DNA of 64,000 nucleotides from Gammaproteobacteria bacterium. Lineage in GTDB: Bacteria; Pseudomonadota; Gammaproteobacteria; Pseudomonadales; Pseudohongiellaceae. The notes under the pieces were generated by a model, which had not been told where the DNA came from, searched no databases, and saw nothing but the letters and a program-made list of their open reading frames with translations. Within the stretch, counting starts at the first letter, position 1, and each line of letters starts with the position of its first letter. Below are positions 46,819-57,379 of the stretch, piece after piece. The DNA lies in contig JAURCS010000003.1 of the NCBI GenBank assembly GCA_030828385.1, positions 43,560 through 107,559 of the forward strand. The letters are read 5' to 3'. The position numbers and the translations under genes are program-made.

Positions 46819-47454
46819 CTAGTCCAGTTCTTTCTTTTTATATTCACACAGGTCTGAAATAACACAGGAACCACAACGTGGTTTGCGTGCGATGCAGGTA
46901 TATCTGCCGTGGAGAATAAGCCAGTGGTGAGCATCGAGAATAAATTCTTCCGGGATAAACTTCATCAGTTTCTTCTCCACTTCCAGTACATTTTTTCCCG
47001 GCGCAATCCCGGTGCGGTTGGATACCCTGAAGATATGGGTGTCTACCGCCATGGCGGCTTTGCGGAAAGCCGTATTGAGTACGACATTGGCTGTTTTGCG
47101 GCCCACCCCAGGCAGAGCTTCAAGGGCTTCCCGGGTATTAGGCACTTGTGAATCATGTTGTTCGACAAGAATTTTGCAGGTCTTGATGACATTCGCCGCC
47201 TTGGTGTTAAACAGGCCGATAGTCTTGATGTAATTTCTCACTTTGCTCTCACCCAGCGCGACAATGGCCTCCGGTGAATTGGCCACCGGGAACAGTTTCT
47301 CTGTTGCCTTGTTTACGCTGACATCGGTGGCCTGGGCTGAAAGCATCACGGCGATCAGCAATTCAAAGGTTGAAGCGTATTTCAGCTCCGTCGTAGGGCT
47401 AGGGTTTTCGTTGCGCAGGCGCGTAAAAATTTCGGTACGCTTGGTTTTATTCAT
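46819..47454 (-). CDS. nth: Endonuclease III
   Basis: Nth is a DNA glycosylase/AP lyase that removes oxidised pyrimidines. The 211 residues match E. coli Nth nearly position for position. The helix-hairpin-helix LPGVGRKTANVV has catalytic Lys120, VDTHIFRV has Asp138, and the [4Fe-4S] cysteines are 187, 194, 197 and 203. The start overlaps the rnfE stop by four bases, the usual rnf-nth arrangement. Confidence 0.97.
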   Translation of the reverse strand: MNKTKRTEIFTRLRNENPSPTTELKYASTFELLIAVMLSAQATDVSVNKATEKLFPVANSPEAIVALGESKVRNYIKTIGLFNTKAANVIKTCKILVEQHDSQVPNTREALEALPGVGRKTANVVLNTAFRKAAMAVDTHIFRVSNRTGIAPGKNVLEVEKKLMKFIPEEFILDAHHWLILHGRYTCIARKPRCGSCVISDLCEYKKKELD

Positions 47455-48173
47455 CCGGTCACCCTGACACGTTTGCCCGGCGTTGGCTGCTGTTTGACGG
47501 GAGACTGATTGGTCCGTTTCTTATCGAGTATATTTTTAAGGGCTATGAGGCCTCCCATAAAAAGGAAGGCGCCAGGTGGCAGGATGGCCAGCAGAAAAGG
47601 CTTGTAGCCGGAGGCTACCTGCAGGGTCCAGTTGCCAGCAAAAGGCAGCAGACGATCCATGTTGGCAAATACCGCGCCGGTTCCTGCCAACTCCCTGAGC
47701 ATGCCCAGTACCAGCAGAACAGCGGCAAAGCCCAGGCCGGTCATCAGGCCATCCAGCAGGGACGGGCCCAGGGTATTTTTCGAGGCAAAGCTTTCGGCGC
47801 GGCCGAGGATGGTGCAATTGGTGACGATAAGAGGAATAAAGATACCCAATGCCTGATAAAGTTCGATGGCAAATGCCCGCAATAGCAGTTCGGCGCAGGT
47901 AGTAAAGGTCGCAATAATCAGGACAAATATCGGCAGACGAATAGCAGGAGTCAGCCGATGCCGACTCAGGGAGACGATGCCATTGGAACCCAGTAACACG
48001 CCGATTGTCGCCAGTCCCAAACCTGCTGCATTGACCACAGAATTGCTTACCGCCAACAGCGGGCACAGGCCAAGTAGCTGAACCAGGGCGGCGTTATTCG
48101 ACCACAATCCCTGGCTAACAATATCCCGAGTTTGAGGTGAAATGGAACTAGATTCGGACTTGGATAGGGGCAT
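47451..48173 (-). CDS. rnfE: Rnf electron-transport complex subunit RnfE
   Basis: RnfE is an integral membrane subunit of the Rnf/Rsx complex, which couples electron transfer to ion transport or reduces SoxR. The 240 residues contain six hydrophobic helices, the start ISPQTRDIVSQGLWSNNAALVQLLGLCPLLAVSNSV and ITLG-type blocks such as LGIFIPLIVTNCTILGRAESFASKN, with a conserved Cys in each half for the membrane iron-sulfur centre. It starts two bases after the rnfG stop. Confidence 0.95.
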   Translation of the reverse strand: MPLSKSESSSISPQTRDIVSQGLWSNNAALVQLLGLCPLLAVSNSVVNAAGLGLATIGVLLGSNGIVSLSRHRLTPAIRLPIFVLIIATFTTCAELLLRAFAIELYQALGIFIPLIVTNCTILGRAESFASKNTLGPSLLDGLMTGLGFAAVLLVLGMLRELAGTGAVFANMDRLLPFAGNWTLQVASGYKPFLLAILPPGAFLFMGGLIALKNILDKKRTNQSPVKQQPTPGKRVRVTG

Positions 48174-48175
48174 TA

Positions 48176-48844
48176 TTAAAACTGATTTGTAGCGTTCGTA
48201 AGTTTGTTCTGGTTTAACTGAAAAAATGCCAGTGCTCTTTCTACCGCATCAACCACGGCTCGAGTGGTAATGGTAGCGCCGACCAGTTGATCGAATTCGC
48301 CACCGTCCTTAATTACTTTCCAACGTGATTGTGTCGGATTAAGCAATGATTTGCCATCGAAGCCGAGAATCCAGTCCGAAACAGTTGCCTCTATCTTGTC
48401 CCCCAGCCCCGGCGTTTCTTTATGCGCCAGTACGCGCACAGCCGAAACCTGACCATTCGCCAGAACCCCTACCATAATCAATATATCGCCGCTGTAGGCA
48501 TCATGGGCTTCAACCGGAAGAATAGTGCCTGAAAACAAGCCATTGAGTAGGCCTGTGTAGGCCTGACGTGAAGTGGAGAGTTGCAGCAACTCTGGCTGGC
48601 TAAACGCAGGATCCTCAGGAGCCAGCGTAAATGTATCCAGCAACAGGTCATTGTCGTGAAGGTGTTCGGGAAAAACTTCGGCGAGCGCGCGACGCTCGGC
48701 AACTCTCTGTTGCTCCTGGATTCTGTCTGCGGTTACCAGATTGACGATGCCCAGTAGCAGGGCGGCGATCAGACCAAATAAACCAAGAACGACACTAGCT
48801 TTAGTGCTGGAGGCGAGCAGGGACTTTTTAGAATCATTGTCCAT
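48176..48844 (-). CDS. rnfG: Rnf complex subunit RnfG
   Basis: RnfG is a periplasmic-facing, membrane-anchored flavoprotein with covalent FMN. I start at ATG 48844, which overlaps the rnfD stop by 11 bases and gives 222 residues. A longer frame to 48931 has no support. One N-terminal membrane segment (SVVLGLFGLIAALLLGIVNLV) precedes the FMN_bind domain. The flavinylation motif is VGATITTRAVVDAV, where a threonine takes the FMN, and ETPGLGDKIE is a hallmark. Confidence 0.93.
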   Translation of the reverse strand: MDNDSKKSLLASSTKASVVLGLFGLIAALLLGIVNLVTADRIQEQQRVAERRALAEVFPEHLHDNDLLLDTFTLAPEDPAFSQPELLQLSTSRQAYTGLLNGLFSGTILPVEAHDAYSGDILIMVGVLANGQVSAVRVLAHKETPGLGDKIEATVSDWILGFDGKSLLNPTQSRWKVIKDGGEFDQLVGATITTRAVVDAVERALAFFQLNQNKLTNATNQF

Positions 48845-49865
48845 AGCTGCTTCCGTTTTGCTGCAGGCGGACGAAATAATCCATAGCCGGGGCGGCAAAG
48901 TTTGCCAGTAGCACGGCAAAGGCGACGCCATCAGGATAGGCTCCCCAGATGCGAATAGAGTAAATCAATATGCCAATGAGCAGGCCATAAATCAGTTTCG
49001 CCTGATTGGTAGCGGGTCCTGACACAGGGTCTGTGGCGATGAAGAAGGCGCCAAACATGGCAGCACCACCAAACAGGTGAAAAAACGGGGAGCCATGACT
49101 GGCAGAACTGCCGCCGTCATAGAAAACAAGGGCCAGCATGCCTATGGCGCCCAGCACGGCAACAGGAATATGCCAGGTGATAATCCTGCAATAAAGCAGG
49201 TATAGACCGCCAATCAGAAAGCCGGCGTTAATCCATTCCCAGCCAGTACCGGAAAGCCGTCCAAACAGAGGGTTGCCGGTCCAGTATTCTTCTATGGTCA
49301 AGCCGCCGCGATCGAGCTTGAACTGATCCAGGGCCGTAGCGCCGACGAAGGCATCCATGGACTCGGGAGCAAAGCCAAGAAACTGGTCCACCTGAGTCAT
49401 TAAGGCGGGCAACTGATGAGTCGCTGTTCCAGGAAAAAGCCAGCGCGTCATTTCCAGCGGGTAGGCGATCAGGAGTACAGCATAGCCCACCATGGCAGGA
49501 TTAAACGGGTTGTAGCCGAGGCCGCCATATAAGTGCTTGGCAACAACGATGGCGAAAAATATCCCTGTCAGACCAAGCCACCAGGGCGCAGCGGGTGGTA
49601 ACGAAAGCGCAAGCAACAGCGCGGTAACCGCTGCGCTGAAATCGGATAAAGATGCAGTAACAGGTTTATGGCGAATGCTTAAAACTGCCGCCTCCAGCGC
49701 AAGTGCGCACAGGACCAGCCAGATGATATTGATCAGAACGCCGGCACCAAAAAAAATCACCATGGCGGCAATGCCGGGAATGCAGGCCAACAACACCAAC
49801 AGCATTATCTGCGCGGTGGTCAGTCGGTGCTGGCGGGAATTAAACAGGAGGGTAGTCAATGTCAT
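48834..49865 (-). CDS. rnfD: Rnf complex subunit RnfD
   Basis: RnfD is a membrane subunit with covalent FMN. The 343 residues have about nine hydrophobic segments, the block LYGGLGYNPFNPAMVGYAVLLIAYP, the probable flavinylation site FVGATALDQFK with threonine, and LFGGAAMFGAFFIATDPVSGP. All are typical. Upstream it normally follows rnfC; here the next 2.6 kb carries genes on the opposite strand, so rnfD must have its own promoter in 49866-50057 or be transcribed from elsewhere. Confidence 0.94.
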   Translation of the reverse strand: MTLTTLLFNSRQHRLTTAQIMLLVLLACIPGIAAMVIFFGAGVLINIIWLVLCALALEAAVLSIRHKPVTASLSDFSAAVTALLLALSLPPAAPWWLGLTGIFFAIVVAKHLYGGLGYNPFNPAMVGYAVLLIAYPLEMTRWLFPGTATHQLPALMTQVDQFLGFAPESMDAFVGATALDQFKLDRGGLTIEEYWTGNPLFGRLSGTGWEWINAGFLIGGLYLLYCRIITWHIPVAVLGAIGMLALVFYDGGSSASHGSPFFHLFGGAAMFGAFFIATDPVSGPATNQAKLIYGLLIGILIYSIRIWGAYPDGVAFAVLLANFAAPAMDYFVRLQQNGSSYGQ

Positions 49866-50057: not shown

Positions 50058-50945
50058 ATGAAAAAGTCCATAAAAAAGGCATTGAGCAAATGCCAGCAGC
50101 TAGCGTTATTGCTTTTGCTTTGCAGCAACCTTGGTGCGCAGGAGTATCAGGGATTTTCCTCCCACAAACTGGTTTCTGCCGGCGTTGATCGGGAATTTAT
50201 TCTCTATGTTCCTGAAGTTGATCATGATAATGGTCTGGCGCTTGTTTTTAGTCTGCATGGCTCTGGAAGCATTCCCCAAACCCAGGTGGATGTCAGTCAC
50301 TTTGATATATTGGCGGAGCGTCATGGCTTTGCGGTTGTGTTCCCAGCCGGGGCCTTCACCAACTCCATTACCGCTCGAAGCTGGAATGCTAACAAAGAAG
50401 AGGGCGTCGATGATATACAGTTTGTTCGGGACATGATTAAGGCGGTCTCAGGGATGCTGAATATTGATCAATCCCGTATCTATACCTCCGGGTATTCCGG
50501 TGGCGCTCGCATGAGCAGTCGTCTTGCCTGTGAATTATCTGATGTGTTGGCGGCAGCTGCTCCGGTTGCCGGCTTGCAGTACCCGGATGATTGCATCCCG
50601 ACACGCGCTATTCCCATCATTGCCTTCCATGCCAGAGACGATCAGGTAAACAACTATGTCCTTGGAAAAGAATCGAGGCCCTATTGGCGTATGGGCGTGG
50701 AAACCGCATTGGACAAGTGGCGCCAGGCCAATTCCTGCTCTCTTGCCAATGCGGATGCGCAATTGAGCGGCAATGTAAGCCGTTATATCTGGGCTGACTG
50801 CGAAGACTCTGCAGAGATTAATTACTATTTAAGTGAAAAGGGTGGGCATACCTGGCCGGGAGCTGATAACAGTGGCGTTAATAATGATATCAATAGTACA
50901 GCGCTGATTTGGGAGTTCTTCAGCCGTCATCAACTGCCGGAATAA
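50058..50945 (+). CDS. Exported esterase of the LpqC/PHB depolymerase-like family
   Basis: This 295-residue alpha/beta hydrolase has a signal peptide (basic start then LALLLLLCSNLGAQ). The catalytic triad is visible: Ser in SGYSGGARMSS, Asp in AFHARDDQVN and His in GGHTWPGADN. The oxyanion region is LVFSLHGSG. Members of this group hydrolyse polyhydroxyalkanoates, feruloyl or acetyl esters; the substrate is unknown. Its base composition looks like the rest of the genome, unlike the AT-rich genes after it. It is divergent from rnfD and lies between the rnf gene groups. Confidence 0.82.
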   Translation: MKKSIKKALSKCQQLALLLLLCSNLGAQEYQGFSSHKLVSAGVDREFILYVPEVDHDNGLALVFSLHGSGSIPQTQVDVSHFDILAERHGFAVVFPAGAFTNSITARSWNANKEEGVDDIQFVRDMIKAVSGMLNIDQSRIYTSGYSGGARMSSRLACELSDVLAAAAPVAGLQYPDDCIPTRAIPIIAFHARDDQVNNYVLGKESRPYWRMGVETALDKWRQANSCSLANADAQLSGNVSRYIWADCEDSAEINYYLSEKGGHTWPGADNSGVNNDINSTALIWEFFSRHQLPE

Positions 50946-51021
50946 AAAATGGCGAAAATGAAAAAACTGATCTACAACTATGGGTGCAATACTGCATAAC
51001 TATGACATGGAGGTTGGAAAA

Positions 51022-51231
51022 ATGAGAGAGCTCGCTATTAACGAGTTGGAGGAAGTCAGTGGGGCTGGTGTGAGTGAAGCTATGGCTTTATGGGGCACTT
51101 CATTAGGTATTGGTACCGTATCATTTGGGAGTAGCTGGGGGGCAGTAACAGCGTTTGGTATAGCTCCTGTTACTGCGTTAGCTATGGTTGGCTTAGCATT
51201 TGCTGGTGGTTATCAATTGCTACAAGAGTAA
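51022..51231 (+). CDS. Bacteriocin/microcin-like peptide with double-glycine-type leader
   Basis: This 69-residue peptide begins MRELAINELEEVSGAG, the pattern of double-glycine-type leaders (ELx2-[EV]-x-V-S-G-[AG]) removed by C39-peptidase ABC exporters. Cleavage after Gly-Ala would leave about 53 residues that are hydrophobic and rich in Gly and Ala (TSLGIGTVSFGSSWGAVTAF). I start at ATG 51022, with GGAGG eight bases upstream, not at the ATG 42 bases earlier. No peptidase/exporter gene is in the window. A 45-residue membrane peptide and an interrupted rhomboid gene follow. A secreted antimicrobial or signalling peptide is the best reading. Confidence 0.7.
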   Translation: MRELAINELEEVSGAGVSEAMALWGTSLGIGTVSFGSSWGAVTAFGIAPVTALAMVGLAFAGGYQLLQE

Positions 51232-51240
51232 AGAAAAAAT

Positions 51241-51274
51241 CCAGAAGGGGCTCTTGCAAAAAAGCCTCTTCTGG
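51241..51274. terminator. Strong hairpin after bacteriocin-like gene
   Basis: CCAGAAGGGGCT and AGCCTCTTCTGG form a 12-base stem with one G-T pair and a ten-base loop. On the plus strand no T-run follows, so it may partly stop or stabilise the peptide mRNA. On the minus strand it is followed by ATTTTTTCTTT, a good terminator, although no minus-strand gene is recognised upstream of it. Confidence 0.6.
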
Positions 51275-51308
51275 CTTAGATAAAAGATGTTTATCTGAGG
51301 TGACTTTT

Positions 51309-51446
51309 ATGGAGTTCGATTTTAACGTTGGTAAAGCTAGACAGGCGATATATTCATTAATCACTCTGGTTATATTGTTTCTGTTTGTTATAGAGATAAC
51401 GAATAATGGAATTTCCAGCTTACTCAATGGAAACTATTTATTTTAA
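51309..51446 (+). CDS. 45-residue single-helix membrane peptide, possible immunity protein
   Basis: ATG 51309 with GAGGTG seven bases upstream opens a 45-codon frame. The product has a polar start (MEFDFNVGKARQA), one membrane helix (IYSLITLVILFLFVIEI) and a short tail ending GNYLF. It ends two bases before the rhomboid ATG, so the two are probably translationally coupled. Small one-helix proteins next to bacteriocin genes are often immunity factors; this is inference from position only. It could also be the first helix of the rhomboid protein separated by a frameshift. Confidence 0.5.
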   Translation: MEFDFNVGKARQAIYSLITLVILFLFVIEITNNGISSLLNGNYLF

Positions 51447-51448
51447 TT

Positions 51449-52495
51449 ATGCTGTTAATTGTACTTTTTGGATTCATATTTATTTTTAGTAGGCGTATAT
51501 ATAATTCATATCACAGCCCAAATAAAATCATTCTTTCTGAAGATGCTCTTAATGTCCCTACTTTTTACCTTGGTATATCGAAAATAAAACTTTCTGATAT
51601 TTATTCAATTGAAGATTTGGTAATAAAAAACAGTGAACTACTCCTTTCAGGGGTAAAAGGTAAAGGCGGTCAATTGATTGATTGTTTAAGATTCGTTTCA
51701 ATGAGTGATTATTATCTGTTCAAGAGTGCGCATAAAAATCGTGCAAGAAATAATTTTGATTGTAAAGCTAGTGAAATAATCAATTTGATAATTTCAAAGA
51801 AGTCTATAAGGGTGCCTGGTTTTACATATATTGTTTTGATTATTTGTTTAATATTTTTTTTCATGAATTATTACAGTTCTTTAGATTTAGAAATGGACAG
51901 TATTTTTCTTAATCTTGGCGTTGGCACAAAATCAGTTTTGCAAGGTAAAGATTTTCATAGAATATTTTCATCCTCATTGCTACATGTAAATTTTTTACAT
52001 CTTTCAGTAAATATATTTGCATTTAGTATTCTTGGGGAATTGTTAGAAAAAGCATTTGGTCATTTGCGAATGATTAATGTTTTCGTTATATCAACATTTC
52101 TTGGATATATTTTTTTCGCTTTGTTTAGCGGATTTGATTACGGTGTAGGCTTGTCAGGAAGTGTATTTGGCCTCTCTGGTGCTTATATTGCATTCAGACT
52201 GCGTTATGAAAAGTATCTTCCAGGTAGTTTGACTATGATGCCTTTGCCTAAGGTATTGACTCTAGTAGTAATTGAAATTTTAGTCTAATATTTCTTTTTA
52301 GAAAATATAGATCACTATAATCATATCGGTGGTTTTATAGCAGGTTTCATATATCTTTACTTTGCGCCCCTGGGGGCAACACTGGAAACTATTGATCAAC
52401 CTGTGTTGGTCGAGAAAATTCTTTGTGGCGGACTGGTGCTGTGTTTCTCGACAGGCCTGGCTTATTTCCTGAGTCTTTATTACGGATTGATTTGA
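51449..52495 (+). pseudogene. Rhomboid-family protease gene interrupted by an in-frame stop
   Basis: The first frame (51449-52288) encodes 279 residues: a membrane helix, a soluble domain at about 25-120 and a rhomboid domain with HVNFLHLSVNIF (His179, His184, Asn188) and GLSGSVFGLSGAY (catalytic Ser236). A TAA at 52286-52288 then interrupts. The same frame continues for 68 codons with NHIGGFIAGF, the H-x-GG motif carrying the catalytic histidine, to TGA at 52493-52495. As read, the shorter protein lacks its catalytic His. A sequencing error, a nonsense mutation or readthrough could explain this. The gene is strongly AT-rich up to about 52360, suggesting foreign origin. Confidence 0.75.
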
Positions 52496-53479
52496 TCAGT
52501 TCGGCTTTTTTTTCGATTTAACCCGTTCCAATGCGGCCAGGATGGTGTCTTTGGTCTGTGATTGAGGGCCTTTTTTCGCCAGTTCGGCGCGTTTTTGCCG
52601 TCGTTGCTCTTCTTCTATTTTGAGGGTTTCCATCCGTTGCTGATGTAATTCAAACCGCTGTTTTGCATTGCCCGCCTGCACTTTTTCAGTTTGTTGCGTG
52701 TTAAGGGATTGCATGGCTGCCTGATAGTATTCCACCAGGGGAATGCTGCTGGGACAAACCCGGTCACATTTGCCACATTCAATACAATGCATCAGCTTCA
52801 GCGTTTCAGCGCCAGCAAGATCATTGCCGCGACAGGCCCAGTACAATTCGTGGGGCAGAATATCAACCGGGCATTCATCGACACATAAAGCGCAATTTAT
52901 GCAGGCCAGTATTTCTTCGTTATTCAGTTCCTCAACAGTTTTAATGGGAGTGGTATAGGGTTCCAGCGGCATCAGATCAATGCAGTCCACCGGGCAAGGT
53001 TCAATGCAAAGGTCGCAGCCGGTGCATTCGCTTTCGATAACCGTGTGCATATATTTTGGCGCCCCCAATATGGCATCCACGGGGCAGGCGGGTATGCATT
53101 TGGCACAGCCAATACATTCGGCTTCCCGAATAAAAGCCACTTTTTTTACTCCAGGCTGCCCGTAACTTTCATCCAGTGGCAAGGCAGGAATATTGAGCAG
53201 GTCAGCAAGCTGACTAATGGTGGATTCACCACCGGGGGGGCATTTGTTGATGACATCTCCCGCTGCGATGGCTTCAGCATAGGGTTTGCAGCCAGGATAA
53301 CCACATTGCCCACATTGTGTTTGTGGTAGCAGGTCATTGATTCTTGTCACGACCGGGTCGCTCTCAAGACGAAACTTTTTCGCTACAAAACCTAATACCG
53401 CGCCAATAGCTAATCCCAGTCCAAGCAGTGCCAGTACTGGGGTTAACAGGGAAGTCAGCATGGGGAGCGATAAGGGCAT
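52496..53479 (-). CDS. rnfB: RnfB-RnfC fusion: RnfB joined to C-terminal ferredoxin domain of RnfC
   Basis: This 327-residue protein starts as RnfB: a membrane anchor (about 8-32), the cluster motif [10 protein letters not shown] with C56, C59, C64, C80, then two ferredoxin clusters (C122-C132 and C152-C162). Instead of ending near 190 it continues with the RnfC C-terminus: two more [4Fe-4S] motifs (C193, C196, C199, C203; C232, C235, C238, C242), [23 protein letters not shown] and a Lys/Glu/Gln-rich tail. The NADH/FMN and SLBB domains of RnfC are absent. It overlaps the rnfA stop (ATGA) and its own stop abuts the rhomboid frame. An in-frame deletion or an assembly join could explain it. Confidence 0.88.
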
Positions 53480-54054
53480 CAGACCATGCCGCTAAAACCC
53501 ATGAATGCCAGGGACATCAGTCCGGCAGTAATCATGGCAATAGCGGCACCCTGAAACGGTTCGGGGATGTCGCAAAGGGCGAGCTTTTCCCGCAAGGCAG
53601 AAAAAAGAATCAACACCAGTGAGAAACCCAGAGCAGCGCCAAAACCATAGAATACCGATTGGGCAAAGCTGTGTGACTGGTTGATGTTGAGCAGGGCGAC
53701 CCCCAGGACTGCACAATTGGAGGTGATCAATGGCAGAAATATCCCCAGAATGCGGTACAGCAGCGGGCTGGTTTTATGCATGATTATTTCTGTCATGCTC
53801 ACTACCGCTGCAATAACGACAATAAAGGAAATGGTTTTCAGGTATTCAAGGCCAAGAGGCACCAGCAGGTATTGAAAAACCAGATAGCTACAGGCAGAAG
53901 CAAGCGTGAGCACAAACAAGGTGGCTGCCGACATACCGACGGCAGTTTCCACCTTGCCTGAAACGCCCATGAAGGGACACAGACCCAGAAACTGGGTCAG
54001 GACAAAATTGTTAACGAGGATGGCGCCAACAAGAATAAGAATAATATCGGTCAT
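53479..54054 (-). CDS. rnfA: Rnf complex subunit RnfA
   Basis: RnfA is a six-helix membrane subunit, homologous to RnfE with inverted topology; each contributes cysteines to a membrane [2Fe-2S] centre. The 191 residues begin [32 protein letters not shown] and contain [21 protein letters not shown], both hallmarks. It is the first gene of the rnf set, with rnfB-C overlapping it by one base. gloA lies 44 bases upstream on the same strand. Confidence 0.96.
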
Positions 54055-54546: not shown

Positions 54547-55314
54547 ATGCTGAAAGCTGCTCGCAACGATATTGATCTCTGGCTGGTGAATTATCAGCAA
54601 ATTCAGGACCCTGCTCTTCTGGAGCAATATGCACAATTCCTCAGTCCCGAAGAAGTAAAGCGACATGAACGCTTTGCTTTTACCCGCGATAAACAACAGT
54701 TTCTTGTTACCAGAGCCCTGATACGCTGGGTACTGTCACAATACCTTGGCCTGGATGATCCCGGCAGCCTTGAATTTGGCGCAAGCAGCAATGGCAAACC
54801 TGAGCTGCTTATTGAAACCACCCTGCAATTTAATCTGACCCATACCAGGGGGCTGATAGCTCTTGCAGTCATGCAGGTGGAGCCGGTAGGAATAGATGTT
54901 GAGTTCCTGAGCAGGCAAGCAGACATTGTTAACCTTGCCGAACGCTACTTCGCGCGCAAGGAGGCAGAAGAACTGCTGGCATTACCGGTTGAGCAATGGA
55001 ACGAGAGATTCTATGACCTGTGGACCCTGAAGGAAGCTTATCTGAAGGCCTGTGGCACGGGCTTGCGCACGCCGCTGTCTGAATTCTGTTTCTCTTTTAA
55101 TGGGGAAACACTGGATATCAGTTTCTCTGACTTGCTCGGTGGAGATTCTACCGCCTGGAAATTCTGGCAACTGGATATTGATAAAGCCTTTCGGCTATCA
55201 CTGGCGGTGAATGACAGGAAGGGCCATGATTATCGACTGCGGGTAAAAAAAGGCTTACCTGTCGCCGGTTTTAGTGATATTTCGCCGGCAATCATTCGCA
55301 CCAGTATCAGGTGA
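54547..55314 (+). CDS. Sfp-type 4'-phosphopantetheinyl transferase
   Basis: This 255-residue enzyme attaches the phosphopantetheine arm of CoA to carrier proteins. Motifs are [14 protein letters not shown] and the N-terminal [30 protein letters not shown] (magnesium ligands Asp117 and Glu119) and [16 protein letters not shown] (W-x2-KEA, Lys162). It is the long Sfp/Gsp type used for non-ribosomal peptide or polyketide carriers or lysine-related pathways. No such synthase is in the window. Its last eight bases overlap the end of metG on the other strand. Confidence 0.9.
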
Positions 55315-57379
55315 CTCGAGTACCGGGTTCTGCGCCTTCATGGGGTTCCAGCAGAAAGACCTTGTCAGCTTCTCCGCTGGCTAGAATCATGCCCTCGGAC
55401 AAGCCGAACTTCATTTGCCGTGGTTTCAGGTTGGCCACCATAACAGTGTGCATGCCAATCAGTTTCTGTGGGTCATAGGCGGCCTTGATGCCGGAGAACA
55501 CGGTACGGGTTTCCTCTTCGCCAGCGGCATTTTGTCCCAGGCTAAGGGTCAGTTTGAGAAGCTTGTTAGCGCCTTCAACGTGTTCGGCATTTATTACCTT
55601 GACGATACGCAGGTCTACTTTTGCGAATTCGGGGAATTCAATTTCTGTACTGATGGGGTCTTTGCCCAGCGCTGTCCTGGCATCAGTATTAGCGGCAGCA
55701 TCAGCGGGATTTTCTATTTTTTCTTCAGCCACGAGGCTCTCCTTGCTGGCTTCCACCATGTCTTCAACTCTTGAAAGTTCTATGCGCGTCATCAGTGGCT
55801 CAAAGCGGCCAATTTCATGATTGGTCAGTAAAGACCGGGCATCTTCCCAAAGCAGGGGTTTCACCTGCAGAAAGGCTTCGCCTTTTTCAGCAATAACGGG
55901 CAACACCGGCTTCAGGTAAATCAACAGGAGGCGGAACAGGTTCAGACCAGTTGAACAGATAGTTTGTACTTCCTCTGCCTGTGGGTTTTCTTTTGCGATC
56001 ACCCAGGGCTGCTGCTCGGCAATATACTGGTTGGCCTTGTCAGCAAGGGACATGATTAGTCGTATAGCCTTGGAAAACTCGCGAGCTTCAAACAATGCCG
56101 CTATCTCATCACCGGTATTCTGGAACTCGGCTATCAGTTCAGGCACCGCTAGGCTAGCTCCCAGGTTGCCGGAAAAATTCTTGTTGATAAACCCGGCGCA
56201 ACGGCTGGCGATATTAACCACTTTGCCAACCACATCGGAATTTACCCGTTGGGCAAAGTCTTCCAGGTTCAAGTCGAGATCTTCAGGGGTGCTACTGAGT
56301 TTGGCGGCAAAATAATAGCGCAGATATTCCGGATTCAGATAATCCAGATAGGTTTGGGCCATAATGAAAGTGCCGCGAGACTTGGACATCTTCTGACCAT
56401 TCACTGTAAGGAAACCGTTAACACTTATCAGGTCCGGTTTTTTAAAGTTGGCAGTTTCCAGCATGGCAGGCCAGAACAGGGCATGGAAATTAATAATGTC
56501 CTTGCCAATGAAATGGTATAGCTCGCTACTGGCATCCTTGCTCCAGTAGTCATCAAACGTCAGATCATCGCGTGACTCGCAGAGTTTTTTGAAGCTCGCC
56601 ATATAACCAATAGGGGCATCAAGCCAGACATAAAAATACTTGCCGCTTTCCCCGGGTATTTCGAAGCCAAAATAGGGCGCGTCCCGGCTGATATCCCATT
56701 CCTGCAGACCAGCATCAAGCCACTCCGCTAATTTATTGGCAACCTGTGGAGCGAGAACACCGCTGCGTGTCCAATCTTTCAACATGTCGGAGAATTCGGG
56801 TAGTTTAAAAAAGAAATGCGTACTTTCTTTTTCTACCGGCGTGGCTCCCGAGATGGTGGAGTAGGGATTTTTCAGATCTGTGGCATCATAGGTTGATGAG
56901 CAGGATTCACAGTTATCCCCATACTGATCCGGCGTGCCACACCTGGGGCACTCGCCCTTGATAAAACGATCCGAGAGAAACATTTCCTTTTCCGGATCAT
57001 ATAACTGGGTAATGGAGCGCTGGGCAATTTTGTCGGCATCTTTCAGGCGCTGGTAAATCAACTCAGCCTGTTCCCGATTTTCATCGGAATGGGTGGTGTA
57101 GTAGATATCGAAGTCAACATGGAAGCCGGCGAAGTCACGGGCATGCTCCTGGTTGACTCTGGCAATCAGTTCTTCGGGAGGAATGCCCTCTCTTTCAGCA
57201 CTCAGCATGATGGCTGTGCCATGGGTATCGTCAGCACAGACATAGGAAACCTTGTTGCCAGCCATGCGTTGAAAGCGCACCCAGATATCAGCCTGGATAT
57301 AACCCAGCAGATGACCCAGGTGGATCGGACCATTGGCAAAGGGCAGGGCGTTTGTGACGAGGATTTTGCGGTTGCTCAA
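55307..57379 (-). CDS. metG: Methionyl-tRNA synthetase
   Basis: MetG charges tRNA-Met. The 690 residues have the class I signature [15 protein letters not shown] (HLGH at 20-23), the zinc knuckle [17 protein letters not shown], the KMSKS loop in [12 protein letters not shown], and a C-terminal tRNA-binding/dimerisation domain ([26 protein letters not shown] ... [15 protein letters not shown]). A linker rich in Glu and Ala lies before that domain. Length is normal. Its 3' end overlaps the PPTase gene by eight bases. Confidence 0.97.

Follow-up and report, generated by a model that had tools for sequence, protein, structure and literature searches.

A putative variant Rnf locus in gammaproteobacteria, with the ferredoxin domain of RnfC fused to RnfB and no NADH/FMN module of RnfC

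The rnf locus

The window, meaning here the whole 64-kb stretch of DNA that was analysed, contains an rnf locus with the following features, the basis for each being given in brackets.

46819..47454, minus strand: nth-like gene (endonuclease III), 211 aa, bordering the locus downstream (own profile)
47451..48173, minus strand: rnfE, 240 aa, both [2Fe-2S] cysteine motifs present, LGLCPL and TNCTIL (profile, motif)
48176..48931, minus strand: rnfG, a 251-aa frame whose true start is uncertain, flavinylation motif VGATITT (profile, motif)
48834..49865, minus strand: rnfD, 343 aa, with the flavinylation motif VGAT but without the terminal arm motifs (profile, motif)
52496..53479, minus strand: rnfB::rnfC(C-terminal) fusion gene, 327 aa (profiles; the one-frame order is also found in relatives)
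52499..52693, minus strand: charged C-terminal helix of RnfC, aa 263-327 of the fusion (AF2 helices)
52694..52909, minus strand: ferredoxin domain of RnfC, aa 191-262, two [4Fe-4S] motifs (C-terminal matches to PRK05035 and TIGR01945; PDB 8ahx_C)
52910..52963, minus strand: linker, aa 173-190, weakly conserved (dN)
52964..53479, minus strand: RnfB part, aa 1-172, with membrane helix, FeS domain (C56/59/64/80) and two-cluster ferredoxin domain (TIGR01944, AF2)
53479..54054, minus strand: rnfA, 191 aa, both [2Fe-2S] cysteine motifs present (profile, motif)
55307..57379, minus strand: metG-like gene, bordering the locus upstream in many relatives (own profile)

The rnfA, rnfD, rnfG and rnfE genes all score above the cut-offs of their models. 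The first of these lies directly upstream of the fusion, and the other three lie downstream, past genes on the opposite strand at 50058-52288 that split rnfBC from rnfD and were absent from an earlier reading of this DNA made from the sequence alone. Their products are an esterase resembling PHB depolymerases, a peptide of 83 aa in which the stretch ELEEVSGAG looks leader-like, and a rhomboid-like protease. Other genes are found between rnfBC and rnfD in six of the seven genomes of the genus, the contig ending at this point in two (G003 and G004). The gap looks like an insertion hot spot, because its content varies from one congener to the next, G001 having none of it. A promoter scan returned 4 promoter-like sites, against 11.7 expected.

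The fused protein

In the ORF analysis of the window, the fusion is a single unbroken frame of 327 aa with an ATG start (52496-53479, minus strand). Its residues 10-174 match the RsxB profile PRK05113 of NCBIfam with 258 bits, above the cut-off, and residues 13-173 match the RnfB profile TIGR01944 with 249.9 bits against a cut-off of 68.7. Residues 186-325 match positions 362-501 of the 556 in the RsxC profile PRK05035 (NCBIfam) with 142 bits; this is under the cut-off of 345, as expected, because the front of RnfC is missing. The match to the RnfC profile TIGR01945 is limited to the last 82 positions, 353-434 of 435. A search of PDB sequences gives A. vinelandii RnfB as the top match (E 4e-36, residues 14-174), the best RnfC chain for residues 183-306 being A. 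vinelandii 8ahx_C, residues 360-478 (E 8.9e-18). The PRK05113 and PRK05035 matches bear out what the sequence-only reading had proposed, namely that RnfB and the ferredoxin end of RnfC stand in one 327-residue frame.

The same reading had counted five cluster motifs on the single chain, and the 20 cysteines concerned could all be located. Assigned to [4Fe-4S] clusters by motif, they are 56, 59, 64 and 80; 122, 125, 128 and 132; and 152, 155, 158 and 162 in the RnfB part, which thus has all three of its motifs and scores over the family cut-off in the window; and 193, 196, 199 and 203, with 232, 235, 238 and 242, in the RnfC part.

The AF2 model of the fusion has a pLDDT of 80.6, falling below 50 in parts of 125-162, and a pTM of 0.46, at which the relative placement of the two ferredoxin domains is not determinable. 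It contains helices at 6-35 (the RnfB membrane helix) and at 248-302 and 304-324 (the RnfC end), and so supports the predicted RnfC domain and its long helix; the nearest chains in Foldseek are again RnfB and RnfC. The RnfC of A. vinelandii is described as having an elongated C-terminal helix that touches RnfB and RnfH (PMC12174285), and that of C. tetanomorphum as an N-terminal arm followed by three domains with FMN (31-358) and, at 359-435, a ferredoxin domain with two clusters (PMC9588780). The RnfC part retained in the fusion corresponds to this last domain.

No NADH/FMN module found in the genome

The NADH/FMN module of RnfC was not found within the 64-kb window, in agreement with the sequence-only reading, which had advised a search of the genome for a separate rnfC. 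In the genome to which the window belongs (2.62 Mb in 149 contigs, with completeness listed as 100), that search found no RnfC over the TIGR01945 cut-off, the best of four matches reaching 76 bits of the 245.95 needed. The four are the fusion, a NuoF (contig C64), a NuoF-like frame (C56) and a GlcF (C74); nuoG adjoins the NuoF on C64, which is that of complex I. A full rnfC elsewhere in the genome was thus not found. In other members of the family, the RnfC model also matches frames of ~450 aa which we take to be NqrA; no such ~450-aa match was found with this model in the window's own genome. Because the part of RnfC that handles NADH is missing, the partner of the complex on the RnfC side is probably something other than NADH.

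Distribution of the fusion among relatives

The fusion was found in at least 29 genomes across seven family codes, one of them a suspect bin. Within the family of the window it is present in 7/7 genomes of the genus, in 5/5 of genus g2, in 2/11 of genus g8 and in G016 of g4. Outside it, the fusion occurs in families f15 (G299, G429, G480), f40 (G369, G176, G311, G350, G474), f47 (G383), f139 (G602, G722), f156 (G619, G735) and f181 (G644). The wider survey covered 390 genomes sampled from the order and 369 sampled from the class, and the counts from it are minimum values. RnfC over the cut-off was found in 0/29 of these genomes, among which G040, G480, G429 and G039 are incomplete drafts (73%, 78%, 82% and 88%). 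The fusion contig of G383 (C155, locus L203) is 5.3 kb long, the bin being of 6.4 Mb and 6% contaminated, and its RnfA and RnfB group with f40; it was probably mis-binned, and no weight is put on it.

As controls, RnfC matches over the cut-off are found in 55/138 genomes of the family, and among the best 80 of 583 confirmed named records RnfC is separate in 79, with a match that starts before profile position 60; the fusion occurs in one of these 80 (JABIPQ010000048.1, Gammaproteobacteria bacterium SI072_bin121). In the genome G018, of the same family, rnfB and rnfC stand at this locus as two separate genes, each full-length. The sequence-only reading would have given up the fusion had relatives shown separate genes here and no independent assembly the fusion; loci of the G018 type in fact exist beside many independent fusion genomes. 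Among the titles and opening lines of abstracts listed in searches of open-access literature, we found no RnfB-RnfC fusion or Rnf free of the NADH module.

The same domain order together with all of rnfA, rnfD, rnfG and rnfE, which the earlier reading had taken as the sign of a real variant, is found in 23/29 fusion genomes (7 of g1, 5 of g2, 2 of g8, 3 of f15, G369, G176, G311, G474 and 2 of f139); in G003 and G004 rnfD, rnfG and rnfE are on a separate contig, and in G176 the contig ends within rnfE. As to the six exceptions, rnfD, rnfG and rnfE were not found in the 6.5 kb (G350), 3.2 kb (G383), 7.0 kb (G619) and 2.1 kb (G644) that follow rnfBC. In G735 rnfD lies 3 kb off, behind an ATPase-like gene, with no rnfG or rnfE between it and nth, and in G016 rnfG was not found in the locus and RnfE is without its cysteines. 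The missing genes may lie elsewhere in these genomes. The first cysteine of RnfA is replaced by His in G619 and G735. Some fusion lineages look further reduced, given that rnfG or more was not found nearby in 6/29 genomes and that three of these six are also without RnfA or RnfE cysteines.

Apparent repeated origin, and where the retained RnfC part starts

Three trees were made, all by quick tree searches. On the MetG tree (62 rows, MetG being unavailable for 19 of the 81 loci) the fused state has to change four times, and starred branches force every one of these changes; on the RnfA+RnfB tree (81 rows) seven changes are needed, five of them forced; and on the MetG+RnfA+RnfB tree (84 rows) eight, six of them forced. 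The last of these omits 18 divergent, partial or suspect loci (L157-L163, L202, L203, L208, L211, L218, L219, L226-L228, L232 and L233). In genus g22 of f15, three fused genomes are nested among full-RnfC ones on both the RnfA+RnfB and the 84-row trees. The fused state thus seems to have arisen several times, with a minimum of four to six forced changes depending on the tree. A single transfer of the fused operon is not favoured as the sole cause, because fused and full loci mostly share their place on the metG side and the trees force several changes.

In all of the 24 aligned fusions, homology to RnfC starts at profile position 364-379 of 517, and in the five found later at 353-375, the match beginning shortly before the first RnfC cluster. 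Linker length differs among fusions. Measured start-to-start, the last RnfB motif and the first RnfC cluster motif are 35-51 residues apart in 23/24 aligned fusions, G069 with its unread residue (X) being the other one.

Cofactor residues and selection

The cluster cysteines of the fusion are kept, 20/20, in 24/24 aligned fusions, except for one unread residue (X) in G069; for the ferredoxin domain of RnfC the count is 8/8 cysteines in 24/24. The five later-found fusions have the same four CxxCxxCxxxC motifs. For the partner subunits, the counts are drawn from the 24 fused loci that were found first, together with the contigs of G003 and G004 that carry rnfD, rnfG and rnfE. Over these, the first [2Fe-2S] cysteine of RnfA is present in 23/23 rows and the second in 22/23 (G040 is without it), each RnfE cysteine is present in 20/21 aligned rows, RnfG has GAT in all 20 rows that are not cut there, and RnfD has AT in 19/20 rows and AS in one. 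In the window itself, the [2Fe-2S] cysteines of RnfA and RnfE and the flavinylation threonines of RnfG and RnfD are all present. The flavins of RnfG and RnfD are attached by ApbE, which is found in 7/7 genomes of the genus.

Substitution rates were compared between the window and G002 and G003 respectively; beyond distances of this type, dS is saturated or undefined. The RnfB ferredoxin domain gives dN 0.014 and 0.046 with dS 0.75 and 0.85, the RnfC domain dN 0.024 and 0.055 with dS 0.20 and 0.59, and the 18-codon linker dN 0.13 and 0.32 with dS 1.13 and 0.82. Over 12-18 codons the linker dN ranges from 0.13 to 1.17, and it is above that of both flanking ferredoxin domains in five of five comparisons.

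The RnfD arms

In solved Rnf complexes both ends of RnfD are described as reaching into RnfC (PMC9588780, PMC11889175). An SP[H-like] motif at the N-terminus of RnfD is found in 83/94 full-RnfC loci, as against 0/21 fused loci, 0/4 with a separate RnfC remnant and 0/7 with an eroded RnfC, and a PRxYGH-like motif at the C-terminus in 81/94 full-RnfC loci, as against 0/21 fused. These patterns were chosen post hoc, a first, stricter one having matched 54/94 full rows. With looser patterns, on another set, the counts are 43/50 full against 0/21 fused (N-terminal) and 45/50 against 2/21 (C-terminal). Sign tests on independent pairs did not reach significance (median p of 0.25 and 0.5; 0.125 and 0.125 for the looser set); such pairs are few, and on average none is opposite in direction. 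Loss of the arm motifs as a second sign accompanying the fusion is therefore suggestive only. The N-terminal motif is also missing from several full-RnfC genomes of f15 and f40 (g93), so that in some lineages loss of the arm may have come ahead of loss of the module. An NPFNP pattern in RnfD did not separate fused from full loci.

Comparison with known systems

Like the gammaproteobacterial Rnf/Rsx system (A. vinelandii Rnf1, PDB 8ahx), the locus has RnfA, B, D, G and E in the order metG-rnfA...E-nth, and keeps both [4Fe-4S] motifs and the C-terminal helix of RnfC. Unlike it, RnfC is absent up to the ferredoxin domain, the remainder is fused to RnfB, and the RnfD arm motifs are missing. The core subunits are also those of the Rnf of Acetobacterium woodii and Clostridium tetanomorphum (PDB 9eri, 7zc6), where RnfB has several ferredoxin modules; there, however, the extra clusters are described as RnfB's own modules, and RnfC as a separate NADH-binding subunit (PMC9588780, PMC11889175). 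Na+-NQR is another relative that lost the RnfC-type NADH site, NqrA being the counterpart of RnfC. NqrA is described as keeping the fold without cofactors (PMC12174285), whereas the fusion has lost the fold and kept the clusters, which makes the fused complexes a counterpart to NqrA.

An ordinary Rnf has rnfA, B, C, D, G and E in one locus and an RnfC with an NADH/FMN module over the cut-off. Here there are five genes, RnfC being a domain of the RnfB chain, and no such module. Judged by every gene it has, the locus is thus best read as coding for a derived Rnf complex, though for a variant and no ordinary member.

Proposed function

The NADH site of RnfC is described as a defined end of the electron path through Rnf, and its apparently repeated loss, with the RnfC clusters kept, separates two roles of RnfC. 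We lean slightly towards the view that the locus codes for a working Rnf-type membrane complex which has lost the NADH/FMN module of RnfC, has joined the two-cluster domain and helix to RnfB, and would have a one-electron partner other than NADH. The route described for Rnf is U-shaped, from the RnfB clusters to the [2Fe-2S] cluster of RnfA/E, the FMN of RnfG, the FMN and riboflavin of RnfD, the RnfC clusters and finally FMN and NAD (PMC9588780, PMC11889175, PMC12174285). The window codes for every step of this route as far as the RnfC clusters, but for neither the FMN nor the NAD site that follows them. Electrons would keep to the U-shaped route through RnfB, RnfA/E, RnfG and RnfD to the RnfC clusters. 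At that end a one-electron carrier or partner (ferredoxin, flavodoxin or flavoprotein) would exchange electrons with the exposed clusters, replacing FMN and NAD(H); such a partner is the simplest inference from the genes present. That would make the complex a carrier:ferredoxin oxidoreductase coupled to an ion gradient, instead of an NADH:ferredoxin one.

The wider proposal, in which our confidence falls somewhat short of even, is that these loci represent a class of NADH-independent Rnf pumps, in which both cytoplasmic ends are FeS wires on one polypeptide working between two one-electron carriers, and which has arisen repeatedly in gammaproteobacteria through loss of the same module. The variant makes testable the role of Rnf/Rsx in such gammaproteobacteria, and whether NADH is the real partner there.

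An unlikely alternative is slow decay, in which the NADH module was among the first things to go as genes were lost, and what is left is a remnant whose role is residual or structural. It is strengthened by the six exceptions among the 29 genomes, in which rnfG or more is missing near the fusion, and finds further support in the absent RnfE or RnfA cysteines of G016, G619 and G735, in family members that have separate RnfC remnants of 174-224 aa and no rnfG found, and in the RnfC of 352-488 aa in f40. A remnant would fit poorly, however, with the presence of all of rnfA, rnfD, rnfG and rnfE, with their cofactor residues, in the window's genus and g2, the cluster cysteines kept in every aligned fusion, the low dN, and the retained RnfC part starting at the same place in independent lineages.

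Much the same low probability is given to an NADH module supplied in trans, where a NuoF-like protein (the complex I NuoF or that on C56) docks on the RnfC clusters and the complex is still linked to NADH. The genome does have two NuoF-family proteins, and the RnfC module is itself described as NuoF-like (PMC9588780). One of the two is nevertheless the complex I NuoF, with nuoG adjoining, and in G644 a search with the RnfC model at E 0.001 matches only the fusion, so that by this test there is no general NuoF-like partner; the missing RnfD arm motifs of fused loci, although not significant, point the same way.

An internal shortcut is improbable. Here electrons would pass directly between RnfB and RnfC clusters, bypassing the membrane path and making RnfBC an electron hub on the cytoplasmic side, which would suit both the spacing of the motifs (35-51 residues in 23/24) and the genomes without rnfD, rnfG and rnfE nearby. 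The cofactor residues of RnfA/E, RnfG and RnfD would then be unneeded, yet they are kept in most, and RnfB and RnfC clusters are described as 25 to >30 angstrom apart in solved complexes (PMC9588780, PMC11889175).

It is very improbable that this is an E. coli-like Rsx system keeping SoxR reduced, as Rsx of E. coli is described as doing (PMC12174285): a SoxR model matched 0/7 genus genomes at E 1e-10, with E. coli positive in the same search, and such a role is accordingly disfavoured in the genus. A chimeric assembly or sequencing error, for which one could cite that the genome is a draft in 149 contigs, has a negligible chance and was rejected, because all congeners carry the same fusion and it recurs in 29 genomes of several families, several times on contigs of >50 kb.

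Other reduced or variant loci

The fusion loci L201 (G350), L240 (G619), L241 (G644) and L260 (G735) are without rnfG and rnfE, and mostly without rnfD, in the DNA covered downstream of rnfBC. L201 runs on into transposase-like frames, and an ATPase-like insert is common to L240 and L260, these frames having been named by eye. Several full-RnfC rows have RnfA or RnfE without the [2Fe-2S] cysteines. In L211 (G008) and L226-L228 (G121, G098, G088) RnfC is full and rnfG was not found in the locus; full-RnfC loci of this kind are possibly a different Rnf variant.

Six loci between metG and nth, L158-L161 (G046, G049, G050, G054) and L162-L163 (G009, G021), have rnfB and a separate RnfC remnant of 174-224 aa; rnfG and rnfE were not found in them with our own profiles, and RnfD is of 275-282 aa in L158-L161. 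In f40, the loci L204-L208, L225 and L229 have an RnfC of 352-488 aa with an eroded N-terminus, in some without the ECEP motif, and could be intermediate stages. One of them, L208 of G505, has RnfB and the eroded RnfC in one 697-aa frame.
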